Assembly: GCA_017643685.1 (NCBI GenBank)
Contig: JAEPMY010000005.1
Location: forward strand, 1-64,000
Direction: 5' to 3'
From: Sneathiella sp.
Lineage (GTDB): Bacteria; Pseudomonadota; Alphaproteobacteria; Sneathiellales; Sneathiellaceae
Length of the DNA stretch: 64,000 nt
The position numbers were made by a program, and so were the translations under genes. A model generated the notes under the pieces. That model had not been told where the DNA came from. It searched no databases and saw only the letters and a program-made list of their open reading frames with translations. Positions 13,577-21,186 of the stretch are shown in pieces. Numbering within the stretch: position 1 is the first letter of the stretch; each line of letters starts with the position of its first letter.

Positions 13577-14329
13577 ATGGCGAACAAATCTGACAACCCA
13601 CCTGCTTCAAATGATCCGTTAAGCGCTGGTTTTGGCCATAATCGGCCAGATGTTCCCGATGATGAATTAGCAAAAGAGTTGGAAGAGCTTCGCGAGGCAG
13701 AGCTGAAATCCAGAGACCTCCCCGCGTTTGAGCCAAAACTTCAGGAATATGTATATGAGGTGCGCTTCTATCCAGGCGCAAATCTGATCCGCGGTGAATT
13801 GCAAGCCTTTGACATCCCTCATGCTGAGCGGGTTCTTCATGTTATTCTTGGGCTGACACGTCTGCCGGTTGATACCCGCATCGTCCTTAAAGTCGAAGAA
13901 GACGAGCGTCTTCGTCAATCACGTGTTGAGCGGAACCGCCGGGCGCTTCGAATGCTGACAAGTCATCACCATTGGCTGCAGGGTAGCAGCGACGGAAAAC
14001 GCGCTGACTTTGCCGGAGAGGATTTAAGCGATGCTGTGCTTGAGGGGCGTGACCTTAGTCATGTGAGCCTGACTAATGCGCGGCTCTCTGGTGCGAAACT
14101 TGCCGGAGCCAAGCTGGTAGGGGCCGATCTTTCCGGTGCAGATTTATCCGGCGCAGACCTGAGCGGGGCAGACCTGACCAACGCTACGCTGGCAGACGCA
14201 AATCTTATTGGGGCAATCCTGCTCGGTGCAAAAGTTGACGGCGCTGATGTGTGGCGGGCGAACTTGGCTCGTATGGTTATTTCACCGGAAGAGCTACACA
14301 AAATCCTTGGCTGCAAGAGTCAGACGTAA
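13577..14329 (+). CDS. Pentapeptide-repeat protein
   Basis: A 250-residue protein. The N-terminal 60 residues are charged and probably flexible. A middle domain (about 55-130) is not recognised. Residues about 145-235 are pentapeptide repeats of the A(D/N)LxG type (KLVGADLSGADLSGADLSGA is the clearest stretch), which fold as a right-handed quadrilateral beta-helix. There is no signal peptide or membrane segment, so it is cytoplasmic. The function is unknown; some pentapeptide proteins mimic DNA or act as scaffolds. It ends just before a terminator belonging to the opposite strand. Confidence 0.85.
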   Translation: MANKSDNPPASNDPLSAGFGHNRPDVPDDELAKELEELREAELKSRDLPAFEPKLQEYVYEVRFYPGANLIRGELQAFDIPHAERVLHVILGLTRLPVDTRIVLKVEEDERLRQSRVERNRRALRMLTSHHHWLQGSSDGKRADFAGEDLSDAVLEGRDLSHVSLTNARLSGAKLAGAKLVGADLSGADLSGADLSGADLTNATLADANLIGAILLGAKVDGADVWRANLARMVISPEELHKILGCKSQT

Positions 14330-14433: not shown

Positions 14434-14964
14434 TTAGTTTGGCAGCAGCACTTTATCGATCACGTGGATCACGCCGTTGCTGCTTTCGACGTCAGCAGAG
14501 ATAACAGTGGCGTCGTTAATCATCACACCGCCGCCGGCGGCATCGATCATCAGATTGCTGCCTTCAACTGATCCTGCGTCCATCTTTTTGCCTGCGATAT
14601 CGGATGACATCACTTTTCCTGGTACTACGTGATAGGTCAGAATTTGGATCAGCTTGTCTTTGTTTTCTGGTTTCAGCAGAGTTTCAACCGTACCTGCTGG
14701 CAACTGATCAAATGCTGCATCAGTTGGTGCAAAAACGGTGAACGGACCCGGGCTTTTCAATGTTTCTACAAGGTCTGCGGCCTGTACAGCGGCGACCAGA
14801 GTATTAAATTTCCCTGCTGATACCGCGGTGTCCACGATATCTGCTTTCATAGCGCTTTCTTTCGCCATGCCGCTTTCACCCGCATTACTTTGGGCGCAGG
14901 CTGCAAGACCTGTTACGAGTGCGATCGCAGTGAATACCCCTGTCATTGACTTAAGTGATTTCAT
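14434..14964 (-). CDS. Fasciclin-domain lipoprotein
   Basis: A 176-residue lipoprotein. The signal peptide ends in a lipobox (TGLAAC-AQ, Cys23). A short Ser/Ala/Lys linker is followed by one FAS1 domain (about 40-175) with its H1 and H2 motifs: [14 protein letters not shown], then [14 protein letters not shown], and the end [16 protein letters not shown]1 domains mediate adhesion or surface interactions. It is divergent from the SDR gene and next to a singlet-oxygen regulon; a weak match to that regulon's promoter was seen upstream but not accepted. It is monocistronic, with its own terminator. Confidence 0.92.
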
Positions 14965-15126
14965 TTCTCTTTCCTCATGTGTCTAGATCGCCCCCTTTAG
15001 CGGCGAATATTGTCAGGGAACCGCGCGTGGTTCTGAGCATCTTTACGGCCGGTGAAAGGGCATAGATCACATATTTAAAAAAATAATATAAAAATAATTA
15101 CAATAACTTAGAGGGTAAAAATTTAG

Positions 15127-15156
15127 TGAACCATGTTCTAGTAAAGGGCGTATAAT
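15127..15156 (+). promoter_or_regulatory. RpoE (ChrR-type) promoter of the SDR-NTF2 operon
   Basis: TGAACC (15127-15132), an 18-base spacer and TATAAT (15151-15156) lie 28 bases before the SDR start. The same -35 and spacer recur at two other genes of this cluster (19784-19813 and 19827-19856), and they match the TGATCC-type -35 known for alphaproteobacterial singlet-oxygen RpoE. Confidence 0.75.
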
Positions 15157-15184
15157 TAAACTGGATTAAATAGGGAAGGGTGAT

Positions 15185-15931
15185 ATGAGTGAACTGATTT
15201 GGATCGTCGGTGCCAGCACAGGTATCGGTAACGAACTGACGAAACAGTTGTTGAAGGAAGGGCATCGTATAATTGCGAGTGCGCGGCACATTGAACCGCT
15301 TGAAGAGCTTCGAAAAGACTTCTCTACTCATCTAATCCCCCTTCGCCTTGATGTGTCTGATGCAGAAGAGGTCGCAAAAATCTGTCAGCAGCTTATTGAT
15401 CAGGGTGACCTGCCGGATCGGATTATCATGTGTGCAGGCATTTATTTTCCGGTTACTGCGACCAAGGTAAAAGAGGCATCAGTCGCAAAAGTGATGGATG
15501 TCAACTTTATGGGCTGTGTTCGCATTACTGAACATATGTTGCCCCATATGCAGTCTCGCGGGACCGGTCACTTGGTATATGTCTCATCAATTGCGGGATA
15601 TATCGGTCTTCCAAAAGCATTGGCATACGGCCCCAGTAAAGCCGCCCTTATCAATTTTGCGGAAGGGCTTCGGATCGAGTTGGCAAATACAGACATCAAA
15701 GTGCAACTGGTAAATCCGGGTTTTGTCAAAACCCCTTTGACCGAACAGAACACGTTCAAGATGCCGTTCTTGATGGAGGTTGAAGATGCTGCAGGTCGAA
15801 TGCGGCAGGGCATGAATTCATCCCAATTCGAGATTAAATTTCCAAAACGCTTCACCTATATGCTGAGAATGATCCAAATGCTGCCTTATGCCTTGTCCTT
15901 GAAATTATTAAGCGCGAGGACGAACCGATGA
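15185..15931 (+). CDS. Short-chain dehydrogenase/reductase
   Basis: A 248-residue SDR oxidoreductase. The Rossmann start is IWIVGASTGIGNEL (TGxxxGIG type). The catalytic residues are Ser in YVSSIAGYIG and the YxxxK motif in AYGPSKAALINFAEGL. GGGAAGGG precedes the ATG by 5 bases. It begins a two-gene operon behind a strong RpoE-type promoter and overlaps the NTF2-like gene by 4 bases. SDR, NTF2-like, flavoprotein, DUF1365 and CFA-synthase genes recur together with rpoE-chrR in many proteobacteria, so a role in lipid modification or repair under photo-oxidative stress is likely. Its substrate is unknown. Confidence 0.9.
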   Translation: MSELIWIVGASTGIGNELTKQLLKEGHRIIASARHIEPLEELRKDFSTHLIPLRLDVSDAEEVAKICQQLIDQGDLPDRIIMCAGIYFPVTATKVKEASVAKVMDVNFMGCVRITEHMLPHMQSRGTGHLVYVSSIAGYIGLPKALAYGPSKAALINFAEGLRIELANTDIKVQLVNPGFVKTPLTEQNTFKMPFLMEVEDAAGRMRQGMNSSQFEIKFPKRFTYMLRMIQMLPYALSLKLLSARTNR

Positions 15932-16371
15932 CGGTCTCAACTGAAGTGCAGGCGGGTTGCGCGGCTTATGCGACTTATTTTAGAGAATTATCCCGCGATA
16001 GAGTTGGTGAGCTTGAAGCGCTGGCGATTGCCGATTTTTATTTTGAGGATCCCTTTAATAAAATTACGGGGTGCGATCGGATCATCGCGATGTTTGATAA
16101 AATGTATGACCAGGTGGGAGAGCCGAAATTTGAAATCCTGTCCGTAAGTTGGGCAGATAAAGCACCAGTTGCAATTTTGAAATGGCGGTTTACTGGTGAC
16201 GGCGGCCGTCTTGGGAAAATTGATTTTCCGGGCATGTCGGAAGTGACGTTTAATGAACAAGGTCTTGCCACTCGCCATGTGGATTACTGGGATAGCGGCA
16301 CTTATTTCTATGCAAAGCTGCCGGTGCTCGGGCGGGTGATCAACTTTATAAAAACCAAAATGCACGCCTGA
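15928..16371 (+). CDS. NTF2-like (SnoaL-type) protein
   Basis: A 147-residue protein of the NTF2/SnoaL fold: FYFEDPFNKITGCDRIIAMF near the N-terminus, then central strands ending in ATRHVDYWDSGTYFYAKLP. Such proteins are small cone-shaped enzymes or binding proteins for hydrophobic ligands. The ATG overlaps the SDR stop (ATGA), and the pair shares the RpoE-type promoter. It is probably a partner or downstream step of the SDR enzyme; no catalytic assignment is possible. Confidence 0.8.
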   Translation: MTVSTEVQAGCAAYATYFRELSRDRVGELEALAIADFYFEDPFNKITGCDRIIAMFDKMYDQVGEPKFEILSVSWADKAPVAILKWRFTGDGGRLGKIDFPGMSEVTFNEQGLATRHVDYWDSGTYFYAKLPVLGRVINFIKTKMHA

Positions 16372-16387
16372 GGTCAGGCGTGCATTT
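16358..16387. terminator. Bidirectional terminator between the NTF2 and cfa genes
   Basis: AAATGCACGCCTGA and TCAGGCGTGCATTT form a perfect 14-bp stem with a 2-base gap at its tip, overlapping the NTF2 stop. On the minus strand it is followed by TTTTGGTTTTTAT, serving cfa. On the plus strand by ATTTAT, serving the SDR operon. Confidence 0.8.
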
Positions 16388-16395
16388 ATAGGTAA

Positions 16396-17646
16396 TCAGA
16401 CTTTTTCAATCTCGAAGATGACGACATCAATGCTGCCATGCTGAAAACCAGCTTCGCAGTATTTCAGGTAAAATTCCCATTTGCGTTTAAATCTTTCGTC
16501 AAACCCATTGGCCCGGATTTCTGGCCAATGCGCTAGGAACTCCTCGTGCCAGAGGCGGAGTGTCTTTGCATAATCGCGACCAAATTCAACGGCGGGTCTA
16601 ACTTTCAATCCAACAGCTTCAGCACTTTTGCAAAACGCGGTTTTGGAAGGCAGGAAACCACCGGGGAAAATATGCTTCTGGATATAATCCAGCTTCCCGC
16701 GGTAGGTGTCAAAACGATCTTCATCAATCGTGATGACCTGAATTGCGGCCCGGCCGCCGGGCTTCAGATTTTGGTGCAGTGCTGTAAAGTAGCTGGGCCA
16801 GTTTTTCTCGCCAACAGCTTCAAACATTTCAATAGAGATGATGGCATCATACTGTTCTTTGTGATCGCGATAATCCTGCAGCTTAAATTCAGCCTGATTG
16901 GATCTACCCAGATTTGAAAGACGCGCCTCTGCAAAGGCATGTTGCTCTTTTGAGAGGGTTAGCCCAACCACGGACACATCTTCTGTCTCGGTTGCTAGCT
17001 CCGCAAATCCACCCCAGCCACAGCCAATTTCAAGGACTTTGTCACCGGCCTCAATGTTTGCCAGATCATATATTTTTTGATATTTCGCCTTTTGGGCGTC
17101 CTGCAAAGACATGTCTGGCGCCTCAAACAGGGCTGATGAATAAGTCATGCTTGGGTCCAGCCATTTTTCATAAAAGCTGTTACCCAAATCATAATGAAAC
17201 TCGATATTGCGGCGGCTGCCGCGCCGGTTGTTTCTGTCTGCAAACTTCCGATAGAGCTGCTGAAGTTTGACGAGCCCACGCCGTACATATTTGTTGCTGA
17301 GATTGTCTTCATTTTGCAAAAACAGGGTCAGCAGTGCGTATATGTCAGGACTTGTCCATTCACCAAGGATATAGCTCTCCCCAAGGCCGATATCATCTTC
17401 TCGAAGGATACGTTTTGGGGCGTTGTAGGAATAGAATTGCCATTCAGCAGATATGTGCTCCTCAGACGGTGCGCCAAATGTCATGACATCCCCATCGGGC
17501 AGTATGACTTTCAATTCCCCATTTTTGATGCCTTTTAATCCGTGGAGGAGGGCGCTCATCCAGGGGTGAATGTGGAAATGTTCTCGTGCCAGGTCTGATG
17601 CTTTGGCGCTTGCGGAAACGGTTAGATTATCTTCCCTCATACTCAT
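16396..17646 (-). CDS. cfa: Cyclopropane-fatty-acyl-phospholipid synthase family methyltransferase
   Basis: A 416-residue SAM-dependent enzyme. SAM motif I is VLEIGCGWGGFAELA. Family motifs are FHYDLGNSFYEKWLDPSMTY (lipid-binding region), SIEMFEAVGEKNW, and the C-terminal YCEAGFQHGSIDVVIFE with the conserved Cys. CFA synthases methylate cis double bonds of membrane phospholipids. Close relatives in singlet-oxygen regulons of purple bacteria make methylated or furan fatty acids, so plain cyclopropanation is not certain. It is third in an operon with the flavoprotein and DUF1365 genes and overlaps the latter by 4 bases. It sits under an RpoE-type promoter. Confidence 0.92.
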   Translation of the reverse strand: MSMREDNLTVSASAKASDLAREHFHIHPWMSALLHGLKGIKNGELKVILPDGDVMTFGAPSEEHISAEWQFYSYNAPKRILREDDIGLGESYILGEWTSPDIYALLTLFLQNEDNLSNKYVRRGLVKLQQLYRKFADRNNRRGSRRNIEFHYDLGNSFYEKWLDPSMTYSSALFEAPDMSLQDAQKAKYQKIYDLANIEAGDKVLEIGCGWGGFAELATETEDVSVVGLTLSKEQHAFAEARLSNLGRSNQAEFKLQDYRDHKEQYDAIISIEMFEAVGEKNWPSYFTALHQNLKPGGRAAIQVITIDEDRFDTYRGKLDYIQKHIFPGGFLPSKTAFCKSAEAVGLKVRPAVEFGRDYAKTLRLWHEEFLAHWPEIRANGFDERFKRKWEFYLKYCEAGFQHGSIDVVIFEIEKV

Positions 17647-18422
17647 TTTGCTTTACCTTCCAACTGTTCCTTCAATTCTGGCTCGTCGTTTCTTGGAACG
17701 ATCTTGATCCCCTTTAGCCAAAGCTTCAGGGCCTCCCAATGAATGGCTGCGATTACCTTTACCCCGATCAGCGGGGTGCGGGCGTAACAGGCAAATAAAT
17801 TCTTCGCGGTTAAGGGGAGCTTTTCTCCGACAAACGAAGCGTTTAATGAATGTTGTCCTTCGCTCGTCAGTTTGATTGAAAGCGCCACATCATCCCCGGG
17901 CGGTTTCACCGCGAAATCGTAATGCCCCTTTTCTGGAAAGAAAGGAGAGACATAAAACTCTTTCGGGCAATCATGTTTTAAAACGGCCCTCTTGTCCCCT
18001 TGAGTGGGGATAACGTAGCGATGCTGCTCTGAAAATGTATTGTTGACTTCGTAAATCACACCGGCCAGCTCAGACTTCATATCCCAAAGAAAATATGTTG
18101 TGAGTGGGTTAAAGCTCTGTCCCCAAATTCTTGGGATATGGAGCATGGTCACAGAAGTGATATCAGATGTGATGCCGTTCAAATTCGCAAACTGGATAAC
18201 CTGGCTTTTTAAAGGGCTATCCTCTTCGTAACCCAGATCTTTAGTTCTCAGAGAGATCAGATTCCATTTATCTTTTGCAAAAAAACGAAGTTCTTTTTCA
18301 AGGTCTTCAATCTCATCCAGATCCAAATAACAATATGTCACTGCATATTGCAGCAGGTGCGCCCTGGGGTGCAGACGGCGATGAAGAACAGAACCTTTAT
18401 ACAGGGCACTTTTTGTTGGCAT
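17643..18422 (-). CDS. DUF1365 protein
   Basis: A 259-residue protein of the DUF1365 family. The start (ALYKGSVLHRRLHPRAHLLQ) and the internal LHIPRIWGQSFNPLTTYFLW and HDCPKEFYVSPFFPE are the family signatures. No signal peptide or clear membrane segment was seen. In nearly all genomes it lies between an amine-oxidase-like flavoprotein and a CFA-synthase, as here, overlapping both neighbours by 1 to 4 bases. It is presumed to act on the same fatty-acid modification; its biochemical activity is not established. Confidence 0.88.
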   Translation of the reverse strand: MPTKSALYKGSVLHRRLHPRAHLLQYAVTYCYLDLDEIEDLEKELRFFAKDKWNLISLRTKDLGYEEDSPLKSQVIQFANLNGITSDITSVTMLHIPRIWGQSFNPLTTYFLWDMKSELAGVIYEVNNTFSEQHRYVIPTQGDKRAVLKHDCPKEFYVSPFFPEKGHYDFAVKPPGDDVALSIKLTSEGQHSLNASFVGEKLPLTAKNLFACYARTPLIGVKVIAAIHWEALKLWLKGIKIVPRNDEPELKEQLEGKAK

Positions 18423-19753
18423 TAACCCACCCTTTCAACCCGCGCTTCTGTCCAGCTTTCGGGAAGCGAGATGCGTGTTTTTTGCGGATTGAAAGACCAT
18501 GGTCGTGATGCGCCTCCCAACGCTTCGGCTACCGCAAGCCCGGCTTGAATCCCATCTTCATGGAAACCATAACCGAAATAGCTACCGCAGAACCAGAGAT
18601 TGTTTTTCCCTTGTAGGTTCCACAGCATATGCTGCGCAGCGATGGATTGGCTATCAAATACGGGGTGATCGTATGGGAAAGACCGAAGCACCGTTCCTTC
18701 TTTTGGTGTTTCAGTGGGGTTCAATGTCACAATAAAGTTTTTGTCTGACTTGATATGTTGCAACTGGTTCATCCAGTAGGACACACACAGTTTCTGGCTG
18801 TTATCTGAGTTGTTATCATCAGCCAGATAATTCCAACTTGCCCAAGCTTTCTTGCGTTTAGGCAAGAAACTTTCATCGGTGTGAAGCACTGCCAGATTTT
18901 TCTCGTAAGGAAACGCGCCCAGCAATTTTACATATTGCGGGGATGGGTTTTCCAGCATGGACAGAGCTTGATCCGCATGGGTGGCGATAACCACGTCATC
19001 ATAGCGCTGAATATGACCATTGCGGCATTCCACAAAAACACCTTCCCGGCTTGGAGTGATTTTTGTAACCGCAGAGTTAAGGCGGATATTTTTATCGCCA
19101 ATTTCCTCTCGCACCTTATTCACATAGGTGCGGCTGCCACCGACAACTGTCCGCCATTGGGGGCGATCTTTAATTTGCAACAAGCCATGGTTTTCGCAAA
19201 AGCGGATAAATGTTTCCGCTGGGTAAGCCAGCATTTCGTCTGCAGGGGTTGACCAGATTGCAGCCCCCATCGGGATTAAATGCTTGTTAATGAAGGCTTT
19301 CGAGTATTCTCCCTCCCGCAGATACTCGCCCAGTGTCATATGCTTATATTTCGGGTCAAACCGCATTTCTGGCGCTTCTTTATAAAAACGTCGGATATCC
19401 AGAAGCATTTGAATGAAAGTAGGGCGGAGCATATTTCTTTTCTGGGCAAACAGTCCTCCAAGTGAGGTTCCTGAATATTCCCATGCGCCTTTATTAATGG
19501 AGACGCTGAAAGACATGTCAGTATCGCGGGAGGGGACGCCGATTTCGTCAAAAAATGCGATTAAGTTTGGGTAGTTTCTGTTGTTGAAAACAATGAAGCC
19601 GGTATCGATAGCGTGATCGCCAATCATCACTGTATTGCTATGACCGCCAAGACGGTCATCCTTTTCATACAACGTCACGCGGTGATTTTTGGAAAGAAGC
19701 CAGGCCGCGGACAAGCCAGAAATACCAGTTCCAATGACAGCAATAGATTTCAT
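18422..19753 (-). CDS. FAD-dependent oxidoreductase (amine-oxidase-like) of the lipid module
   Basis: A 443-residue flavoprotein from the ATG at 19753. A longer frame begins further upstream, but MKSIAVIGTGISGLSAAWLL puts the dinucleotide-binding motif at the true N-terminus. It is followed by LYEKDDRLGGHSNTV. The conserved C-terminal FAD motif is LWFCGSYFGYGFHEDGIQAG. It leads the operon with DUF1365 and cfa. An RpoE-type promoter lies 31 to 60 bases upstream. It probably oxidises or desaturates methylated acyl chains; the name of the reaction is inference from context. Confidence 0.88.
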   Translation of the reverse strand: MKSIAVIGTGISGLSAAWLLSKNHRVTLYEKDDRLGGHSNTVMIGDHAIDTGFIVFNNRNYPNLIAFFDEIGVPSRDTDMSFSVSINKGAWEYSGTSLGGLFAQKRNMLRPTFIQMLLDIRRFYKEAPEMRFDPKYKHMTLGEYLREGEYSKAFINKHLIPMGAAIWSTPADEMLAYPAETFIRFCENHGLLQIKDRPQWRTVVGGSRTYVNKVREEIGDKNIRLNSAVTKITPSREGVFVECRNGHIQRYDDVVIATHADQALSMLENPSPQYVKLLGAFPYEKNLAVLHTDESFLPKRKKAWASWNYLADDNNSDNSQKLCVSYWMNQLQHIKSDKNFIVTLNPTETPKEGTVLRSFPYDHPVFDSQSIAAQHMLWNLQGKNNLWFCGSYFGYGFHEDGIQAGLAVAEALGGASRPWSFNPQKTRISLPESWTEARVERVG

Positions 19754-19783
19754 CGAAAATCCCGTTAAAAAATCATTTGTATT

Positions 19784-19813
19784 TATATACGCCAATTAAG
19801 TTCTTTTGGTTCA
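19784..19813 (-). promoter_or_regulatory. RpoE (ChrR-type) promoter of the flavoprotein-DUF1365-cfa operon
   Basis: On the minus strand TGAACC (19808-19813), an 18-base spacer and TATATA (19784-19789) precede the flavoprotein start by 30 bases. It is back to back with the rpoE promoter, the two -35 elements being 13 bases apart. Confidence 0.72.
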
Positions 19814-19826
19814 ATGACCTTTTCGG

Positions 19827-19856
19827 TGATCCGAACTTTTATCCCCGGCGTAAACC
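19827..19856 (+). promoter_or_regulatory. Autoregulatory RpoE (ChrR-type) promoter of rpoE-chrR
   Basis: TGATCC (19827-19832), an 18-base spacer and TAAACC (19851-19856) lie 32 bases before the rpoE start. The -35 is the consensus reported for Rhodobacter-type RpoE, and positive autoregulation is known for that family. Confidence 0.75.
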
Positions 19857-19888: not shown

Positions 19889-20491
19889 ATGCAACAGCAG
19901 AGAGCGCTGATGAAAAAGCTGGAAACCGACGAGGATACGCCACCGGTGAAAACAGATCTTGATATGCTGTTGACCCGCGTCGGAGAACAGGCAGACCGAC
20001 AGGCCTTTACAGACCTGTTTGAAAAAGTTGCGCCGCGATTGAAGTCCTTCCTTCGCGGGCAAAAACAAGCAGAAAGCGAGATCGAAGTGATCTTGCAGGA
20101 AACCATGCTGAAGGTCTGGCGACGCGCCAGTACATTCGACAGATCAAAATCTTCTGCCATCACATGGATCTATACGGTTGCTCGCAACGTAAAGATTGAC
20201 AGATTACGGAAAATGTCACGGCCGGAGCCGGATCCAAACGATCCGAGTTTTGTTCCAGCCCCTCCGGAAACGGGGGAGCAGGCCATGGACCGTCAACAAA
20301 GAAGCGATATCCTGAAAAGGGCTGTTTCTTTGCTGCCGGAAGATCAAAAAAAGATAATTATGTTGTCTTTTTTTGAAGAGAAGCCGCATTCGGAAATTGC
20401 AGAGGAGTTGGGGATTCCTCTGGGTACAGTTAAATCACGCATTCGACTGGCATTTGGTAAAATCCGGTCGGAATTGGAGAGTTTAAAATGA
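19889..20491 (+). CDS. rpoE: ECF sigma factor RpoE of the singlet-oxygen response
   Basis: A 200-residue ECF sigma factor. Region 2 is VILQETMLKVWRRASTF with ITWIYTVARNVKIDRLRKM; region 4 is LLPEDQKKIIMLSFFEEKPH and GIPLGTVKSRIRLAFGKIRS. The gene overlaps a ChrR-type zinc anti-sigma gene by 4 bases, which identifies the group (ECF11-like). A second in-frame Met eight codons in (MKKLE) is an alternative start. It should direct transcription from the TGA(A/T)CC-N18 promoters seen at three operons here in response to singlet oxygen or similar photo-oxidative stress. Confidence 0.92.
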   Translation: MQQQRALMKKLETDEDTPPVKTDLDMLLTRVGEQADRQAFTDLFEKVAPRLKSFLRGQKQAESEIEVILQETMLKVWRRASTFDRSKSSAITWIYTVARNVKIDRLRKMSRPEPDPNDPSFVPAPPETGEQAMDRQQRSDILKRAVSLLPEDQKKIIMLSFFEEKPHSEIAEELGIPLGTVKSRIRLAFGKIRSELESLK

Positions 20492-21150
20492 GCATCAAGC
20501 ATCATATCAACGATGATACCTTGCTGGCTTATGTGAATAATACGTTGCCGGAAACCCTGTCTGTTGTGGTGGCGACGCATCTTGCCATATGCCCGGAATG
20601 CCGTAAAACGGTTGAGCTGATGGAAGACATGGCGGCCATGTACATGCTGAATGCAGAGCCAGAGCCCCTCAGCCCGGCGGAGCGAGATATTCCCAAAATA
20701 CTGGATGATGGCTTCGTCCGTGAAGACAAGGAAGCCTCCTCTGCTGAGACGGTCGATAAAGGTGTTCCGTCCCCTCTTGCAGAGCGTTTGCCTGTTCATT
20801 TGGATGATATCCCTTGGCGCAGGCTTGTGCCGGGTGTCAGCCATTACCCGTTGAGTTTGTCTGGTGGAGACAAAACGAAAGGTGCTTTGCGCCTTCTGAA
20901 AATCTCCCCCGGGACCCCAATGCCGGAACACGGCCACACTGGGCAGGAACTGACCCTCATTTTAAGTGGTTCCTATATCGATGAAATGGGCCGGTTCCAA
21001 GTGGGGGATATTGCAGATCTGGACGATGATGTGATGCACCGACCTGTTTCTGATACCGAAAAGGATTGTATCTGTCTTATCGCGACGGACGCTCCGCTCC
21101 GTTTCAAGGGGCTGATCAGTCGAATGTTACAGCCAATCATCGGAATTTGA
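20488..21150 (+). CDS. chrR: ChrR-type zinc anti-sigma factor with cupin domain
   Basis: A 220-residue soluble anti-sigma factor. The N-terminal ASD domain has a HxxxCxxC zinc site (THLAICPECRKT) plus the early His of HHINDDTLLAY. The C-terminal cupin has a metal-binding pattern (PMPEHGHTGQELTLILSGSY then GDIADLDDDVMHRP). In the known system the ASD holds RpoE inactive and the cupin domain is needed to respond to singlet oxygen. It overlaps rpoE (ATGA) and is followed by a strong terminator. It contains no membrane segment. Confidence 0.93.
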   Translation: MSIKHHINDDTLLAYVNNTLPETLSVVVATHLAICPECRKTVELMEDMAAMYMLNAEPEPLSPAERDIPKILDDGFVREDKEASSAETVDKGVPSPLAERLPVHLDDIPWRRLVPGVSHYPLSLSGGDKTKGALRLLKISPGTPMPEHGHTGQELTLILSGSYIDEMGRFQVGDIADLDDDVMHRPVSDTEKDCICLIATDAPLRFKGLISRMLQPIIGI

Positions 21151-21159
21151 TCCTGATTT

Positions 21160-21186
21160 TGCCGGCCTTGTTGCCGGCATTTTTTT
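21160..21186 (+). terminator. Terminator after rpoE-chrR
   Basis: TGCCGGC and GCCGGCA form a 7-bp G/C-rich stem with a 6-base loop, followed by seven T's (21180-21186), 10 bases after the chrR stop. Confidence 0.9.

Follow-up and report, generated by a model that had tools for sequence, protein, structure and literature searches.

Do the promoter-like sequences around a sigma factor gene of Sneathiella define a compact singlet-oxygen regulon, and which genes would belong to it? The gene is rpoE, which is followed by chrR in a 64,000-nt stretch of DNA from Sneathiella sp. (assembly GCA_017643685.1, contig JAEPMY010000005.1, positions 1 to 64,000; hereafter the window). A sequence-only reading of this stretch had matched three RpoE-type promoters and predicted from them the co-induction of seven genes. 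We conclude, with a probability of roughly 0.9, that the locus is a group ECF11 (extracytoplasmic function) RpoE-ChrR photo-oxidative stress locus of a Sneathiella species. The system is already known; the promoter observation is right, and what was read from it holds in outline once the changes given below are made. Comparisons with published systems draw on PMC6852236, PMC7074977, PMC7380195, PMC5507510, PMC4336711, PMC5036791 and PMC3441632.

Promoter motif and spacing

All three sites were found where they had been proposed: TGAACC at 15127-15132 (+ strand) followed by 18 bases (N18) and TATAAT ahead of the short-chain dehydrogenase (SDR) gene, TGAACC at 19813-19808 (− strand) followed by N18 and TATATA ahead of the flavoprotein gene (ufaD), and TGATCC at 19827-19832 (+ strand) followed by N18 and TAAACC ahead of rpoE. 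The −35 hexamers of the divergent ufaD and rpoE sites are indeed separated by 13 bases (19814-19826). What had been mis-framed is the −10 element, for which TATAAT, TATATA and TAAACC had been taken: GGCG directly precedes the TA at all three sites, and the true element is CGTA, its CG falling inside the supposed N18. Because the −10 element is CGTA and not these hexamers, the conserved spacing between it and the −35 hexamer is 16 bases. The promoter of the SDR-SnoaL operon thereby spans 15127-15152 (+ strand, TGAACC-N16-CGTA), that of ufaD-ufaO-ufaM spans 19788-19813 (− strand, TGAACC-N16-CGTA), and that of rpoE-chrR, through which rpoE would regulate itself, spans 19827-19852 (+ strand) and is a perfect match to TGATCC-N16-CGTA. 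A fourth site, TGATCT-N16-CGTA at 15044-15069 (− strand, read 15069-15044), points toward a fasciclin gene, with 57 bases between it and the −35 hexamer of the SDR promoter. Both this promoter and its gene were missing from the seven-gene set, so that the window holds four promoters serving eight genes.

The working motif TGATCC-N16-CGTA is the published ECF11 RpoE promoter: the same motif was derived by ChIP-seq for PSPTO_1043 of Pseudomonas syringae, TGATCC-N15-GCGTA is given for Rhodobacter sphaeroides RpoE, and for Shewanella RpoE2, TGATCC with CGTATT or CGTAAT is supported by mapped starts. The frame of the motif decides how well it picks out the sites. The pattern TGAWCC-N18-TA (W, A or T) occurs 8 times in the window against 3.4 expected (at least 8 in 2 of 100 shuffles) and 229 times genome-wide against 99 for the reversed control, and is therefore weak by itself; the genome scan with it that had been suggested for finding the rest of the regulon is too loose. 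With the GGCG included, TGAWCC-N14-GGCGTA has three matches in the 3.43-Mb assembly, which are precisely the SDR, ufaD and rpoE sites (two for the reversed pattern), and TGAWCC-N15-GCGTA again returns just those three genome-wide. The wider form TGAWCY-N16-CGTA (Y, C or T) matches five times in the window against 0.15 expected, a count of at least five being reached in none of 100 shuffles; across the genome it matches 19 times (12 for the reversed control), five of them on the window's contig. The match at 14626-14651 was rejected as a promoter, as it falls within the fasciclin coding region. Four intergenic matches lie in 14962-19856 against 0.02 expected (Poisson P ~7e-9, calculated after the region was already known). 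The three matched promoters are not due to chance.

Conservation in relatives bears out the 16-base spacing. Two of 20 fetched loci were left out: L082 does not have ufaD and rpoE in divergent arrangement, and L083 lacks a ufaD match but carries a perfect motif match at rpoE. The remaining 18 relatives and the window make a set of 19 divergent loci. A site scoring at least 9/10 with a spacer of 16 is present at rpoE in 18 of the 19 and at ufaD in 18 of the 19, while spacers of 12-15 and 17-21 are found in 0-1 loci. The gap between the divergent −35 hexamers ranges from 13 to 111 bases over the same loci; its exact size thus carries no message, and we rejected the 13-base gap as a meaningful feature. 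A broader sample of named ufaD loci was drawn from 585 confirmed relatives, of which the best 80 were taken by similarity. There, the motif with spacer 16 occurs in 57 of 80 loci (0-2 for the other spacers from 12 to 20); rpoE neighbours ufaD in 64 and chrR does so in 62, and DUF1365 and CMAS genes are close by in 77 and 65 loci, respectively. The layout and the motif recur across Proteobacteria.

Genes served by the promoters

The rpoE gene (19889-20491, + strand) encodes an ECF sigma factor that aligns to chain A of 2q1z in the Protein Data Bank (PDB; E 9e-37), and chrR (20488-21150, + strand), whose open reading frame (ORF) overlaps that of rpoE by 4 bases, encodes a zinc anti-sigma factor with a cupin-like domain (PDB 2z2s_B, E 1e-41; NCBIfam TIGR02451, 180 bits with a cut-off of 124.5). 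Both structures, 2q1z and 2z2s, are of the R. sphaeroides RpoE/ChrR complex. In the alignment to 2z2s_B, H6, H31, C35 and C38 of the zinc anti-sigma domain are identical and are predicted to bind metal; we take them to be the N-terminal zinc ligands of ChrR. A His2Cys2 ligand type for ChrR is supported by PMC6432622. The counterparts of H141, H143, E147 and H177 in the cupin-like domain are identical as well, and E147 and H177 are required for the response in R. sphaeroides according to a review. The proposal that RpoE (ECF11)-type promoters serve rpoE-chrR and its neighbours is thus upheld both by the alignment of the sigma/anti-sigma pair to the R. sphaeroides chains and by the published motif. 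Directly 3' of chrR, a terminator-like hairpin with a T run (21160-21179, + strand) leads us to regard the downstream type I secretion genes as probably separate from the unit.

On the opposite strand, one unit encodes three proteins whose families and gene order make them candidates for a furan-fatty-acid pathway: a flavin amine-oxidase family protein as candidate UfaD, the desaturase (18422-19753, Pfam Amino_oxidase 7e-29), a DUF1365 protein as candidate UfaO, for the O2-dependent furan-forming step (17643-18422, Pfam DUF1365 2e-69), and a CMAS-family methyltransferase as candidate UfaM, for furan fatty acid step 1 (16396-17646, Pfam CMAS 2e-88). The start of ufaD given in the ORF list, TTG at 19795, was rejected in favour of ATG at 19753, since the former would place the −10 element within the ORF. 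Relatives of UfaD share 44-74% identity. The order is that of the R. palustris locus RPA2571-2570-2569 (ufaD-ufaO-ufaM), which according to the published tests is both required for making furan fatty acids and sufficient for it, and whose UfaO is a DUF1365 protein. In R. sphaeroides, by contrast, ufaM (RSP2144) is described at a separate place, whereas in the window it lies inside the ufaD-ufaO operon.

Convergent to this unit, the SDR gene (15185-15931, + strand, Pfam adh_short 3e-42) overlaps by 4 bases a gene for a SnoaL-like protein (15928-16371, + strand, Pfam SnoaL_2 3e-11); the SDR is likely the counterpart of R. sphaeroides RSP_1087. Equivalent promoters occur 5' of the SDR operon in relatives, immediately before the SDR gene in four of them (L064, L069, L072 and L073), and in five others ahead of an extra leading gene that precedes it. 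In L066, L067, L068, L070 and L074, a conserved secreted-looking gene heads the operon behind an RpoE-type site; the window locus differs from several Sneathiella relatives in having no such leading gene before the SDR gene. A 13-bp hairpin at 16358-16387, between the SDR-SnoaL and ufaD-ufaO-ufaM operons, is probably a terminator shared by the two convergent stress operons and likely bidirectional.

The fourth promoter faces a gene for a fasciclin (FAS1) domain protein with a lipoprotein-like signal (LAAC) at 14434-14964 (− strand, Pfam Fasciclin 5e-40). We scanned 30 of 47 fasciclin matches. A site scoring at least 9/10 is present upstream in 12 of the 14 same-genus loci, standing 97-132 bases ahead of where the match begins in 11 of these 12 and at −195 in one; the two loci without it (L123 and L126) are more diverged copies. 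In the wider class, 5 of 16 loci have the site and 11 have none. Several of the genus genes lie on contigs other than that of rpoE, or ~670 kb from rpoE in one genome (G011), so the site has not been preserved by linkage alone. The listing of the R. sphaeroides RpoE regulon includes RSP_1409, a fasciclin protein. We propose tentatively, at somewhat less than even odds, that the fasciclin lipoprotein is a fixed direct target of RpoE in Sneathiella, which keeps its own TGATCY-N16-CGTA whether it faces the SDR gene or lies far from rpoE. If so, the photo-oxidative response would include a surface or envelope protein as a general effector arm, a role without description in the literature examined. 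Beside the fasciclin gene, both in the window (13577-14329) and in the sister genome G015, there is a gene for a protein with C-terminal pentapeptide repeats.

Extent of the regulon

The core ECF11 regulon, which is reported as conserved in photosynthetic and non-photosynthetic bacteria, comprises rpoE-chrR, furan-fatty-acid genes, SDR and photolyase. Here the promoter precedes rpoE-chrR, the candidate furan-fatty-acid genes and the SDR gene, and no such site was assigned to photolyase (see below). The R. sphaeroides RpoE-ChrR system shares with the window the sigma/anti-sigma pair, the promoter motif and ufa genes beside rpoE, and has SDR, fasciclin and CMAS methyltransferase counterparts in its regulon. 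Gene order, convergent/divergent layout and promoters are likewise common to the window and to Thalassospira, Kordiimonas and other Sneathiella loci, many of which, unlike the window, have a GPH-family symporter gene after ufaM (of the 20 relatives' loci fetched, 8 have it at full or near full length, and two more give partial matches). The regulons of Shewanella RpoE2 and P. syringae PSPTO_1043 use the same TGATCC-N16-CGTA, but their cfa-type genes are described with photolyase at a separate locus and not opposite rpoE. In the one literature search that covered the genus, the name Sneathiella did not occur among the papers listed, which does not mean that the literature lacks it.

How compact the regulon is depends on the rest of the genome, where absences are soft as the assembly is 92.8% complete. 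The 14 TGAWCY-N16-CGTA matches off the window's contig lie mostly within coding regions. In R. sphaeroides, rpoHII is listed in the RpoE regulon; here, for the two best RpoH-family genes, the highest-scoring sites in a range of 400 bases reach 8/10 (at −358) and 6/10, and we rejected rpoH as a target on this check, which covered those two genes and not a third, weaker match. The genome also differs from R. sphaeroides in that its fasciclin gene is linked to the locus, and in having no convincing photolyase site: the only photolyase-adjacent match (contig C8), found without a separate search for photolyase genes, falls in a divergent coding region and was rejected. As to rpoH and photolyase, the description of the regulon as compact fits. 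It is limited by a GPH-family symporter gene elsewhere (L098, contig C177), which has the best off-contig candidate site, TGATCT-N16-CGTA, ~10 bases before the start codon and apparently in a short gap between two divergent genes. From such a position the transcript would have almost no leader. The R. sphaeroides regulon includes a GPH symporter, RSP_1089.

Further sites mark possible members. In the same genome, TGATCC-N16-CGTA lies 188 bases upstream of an AhpC/TSA peroxiredoxin gene (L096, contig C151), and a site lies 263 bases upstream of a BTAD gene on contig C138. Among Sneathiella relatives, TGATCC-N16-CGTA precedes a LysR-type regulator gene by 107-108 bases in L231, L232 and L233 (genomes G022, G018 and G001), which makes this regulator a candidate member of an extended regulon, and in L237 (G022, contig C2) the same motif stands 50 bases ahead of a catalase-like gene. 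Ten extra sites in relatives were picked by eye; five of the ten were outside the longest-start ORF or had a plausible downstream gene, and the rest were uninformative.

Mechanism, alternatives and meaning

By analogy with R. sphaeroides, where singlet oxygen or organic hydroperoxides are the signal, ChrR would keep RpoE inactive via its zinc-binding N-terminal domain until a lipid- or oxygen-derived signal leads to the loss of ChrR. The released RpoE would then transcribe rpoE-chrR, ufaD-ufaO-ufaM, SDR-SnoaL and the fasciclin lipoprotein gene from TGAWCY-N16-CGTA. Singlet oxygen destroys furan fatty acids in R. sphaeroides, and ChrR turnover needs them, as stated in a review; because of this need, the divergent pairing of rpoE with ufaD would link autoregulation to an output that amplifies it, closing a loop. 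Singlet-oxygen induction in Sneathiella would be expected on the same analogy.

Several points weigh against this account. Two of the three originally matched sites read TGAACC, one base off the consensus; the relative L074 has no site of at least 9/10 at rpoE; and in the sample of 80 named ufaD loci, 23 have no motif that scores 9/10. The candidate names UfaM, UfaO and UfaD derive from protein family and gene order. What the sequences show directly are the sites, their spacing and conservation, the gene families and the ChrR residues that are kept; RpoE dependence, the inducer, the enzyme activities and the feedback loop are things that we infer. A perfect TATAAT at the end of the SDR site would fit ordinary sigma-70 housekeeping promoters, whose A+T-rich −10 elements merely look matched while TGA-CC is coincidental. 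We consider this very improbable, since no sigma-70-type promoter was found at any of the sites, the total of 6 in the region is under the shuffle mean of 8.6, and relatives keep TGATCC-N16-CGTA but not TATAAT after it.

If the genes do depend on RpoE, their natural trigger might still be something other than singlet oxygen as such: an organic hydroperoxide, light acting on endogenous pigments, or a different stress. Organic hydroperoxides activate the system too and non-photosynthetic species have it, according to a review, but the furan-fatty-acid genes and the cupin residues E147/H177 are tied to the singlet-oxygen response in R. sphaeroides, and we regard a different trigger as rather unlikely. 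Another possibility is that ordinary cyclopropane fatty acids are the product of the methyltransferase and that the flavoprotein-DUF1365 pair serves some other function, with no furan fatty acids produced. The nearest NCBIfam models to the methyltransferase are cyclopropane synthases, yet it scores far under every cyclopropane-fatty-acid-synthase cut-off (286 bits with a cut-off of 600, and 265 with one of 400), and the ufaD-ufaO-ufaM order agrees with the R. palustris genes, which are reported as tested for furan fatty acids; this possibility appears quite improbable. The assignment of the locus to the ECF11 RpoE-ChrR photo-oxidative stress system is therefore the one that we retain.

By comparison among relatives, the analysis cleanly defines the ECF11 promoter of Sneathiella, namely its motif, its spacing and its constrained and unconstrained parts. 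It corrects the motif with which further members are to be searched and brings the fasciclin gene into the locus, and it leaves the overall picture of the RpoE-ChrR system unchanged. For the organism, the candidate ufa operon opposite rpoE suggests that Sneathiella, a little-studied genus, may make furan fatty acids under stress.

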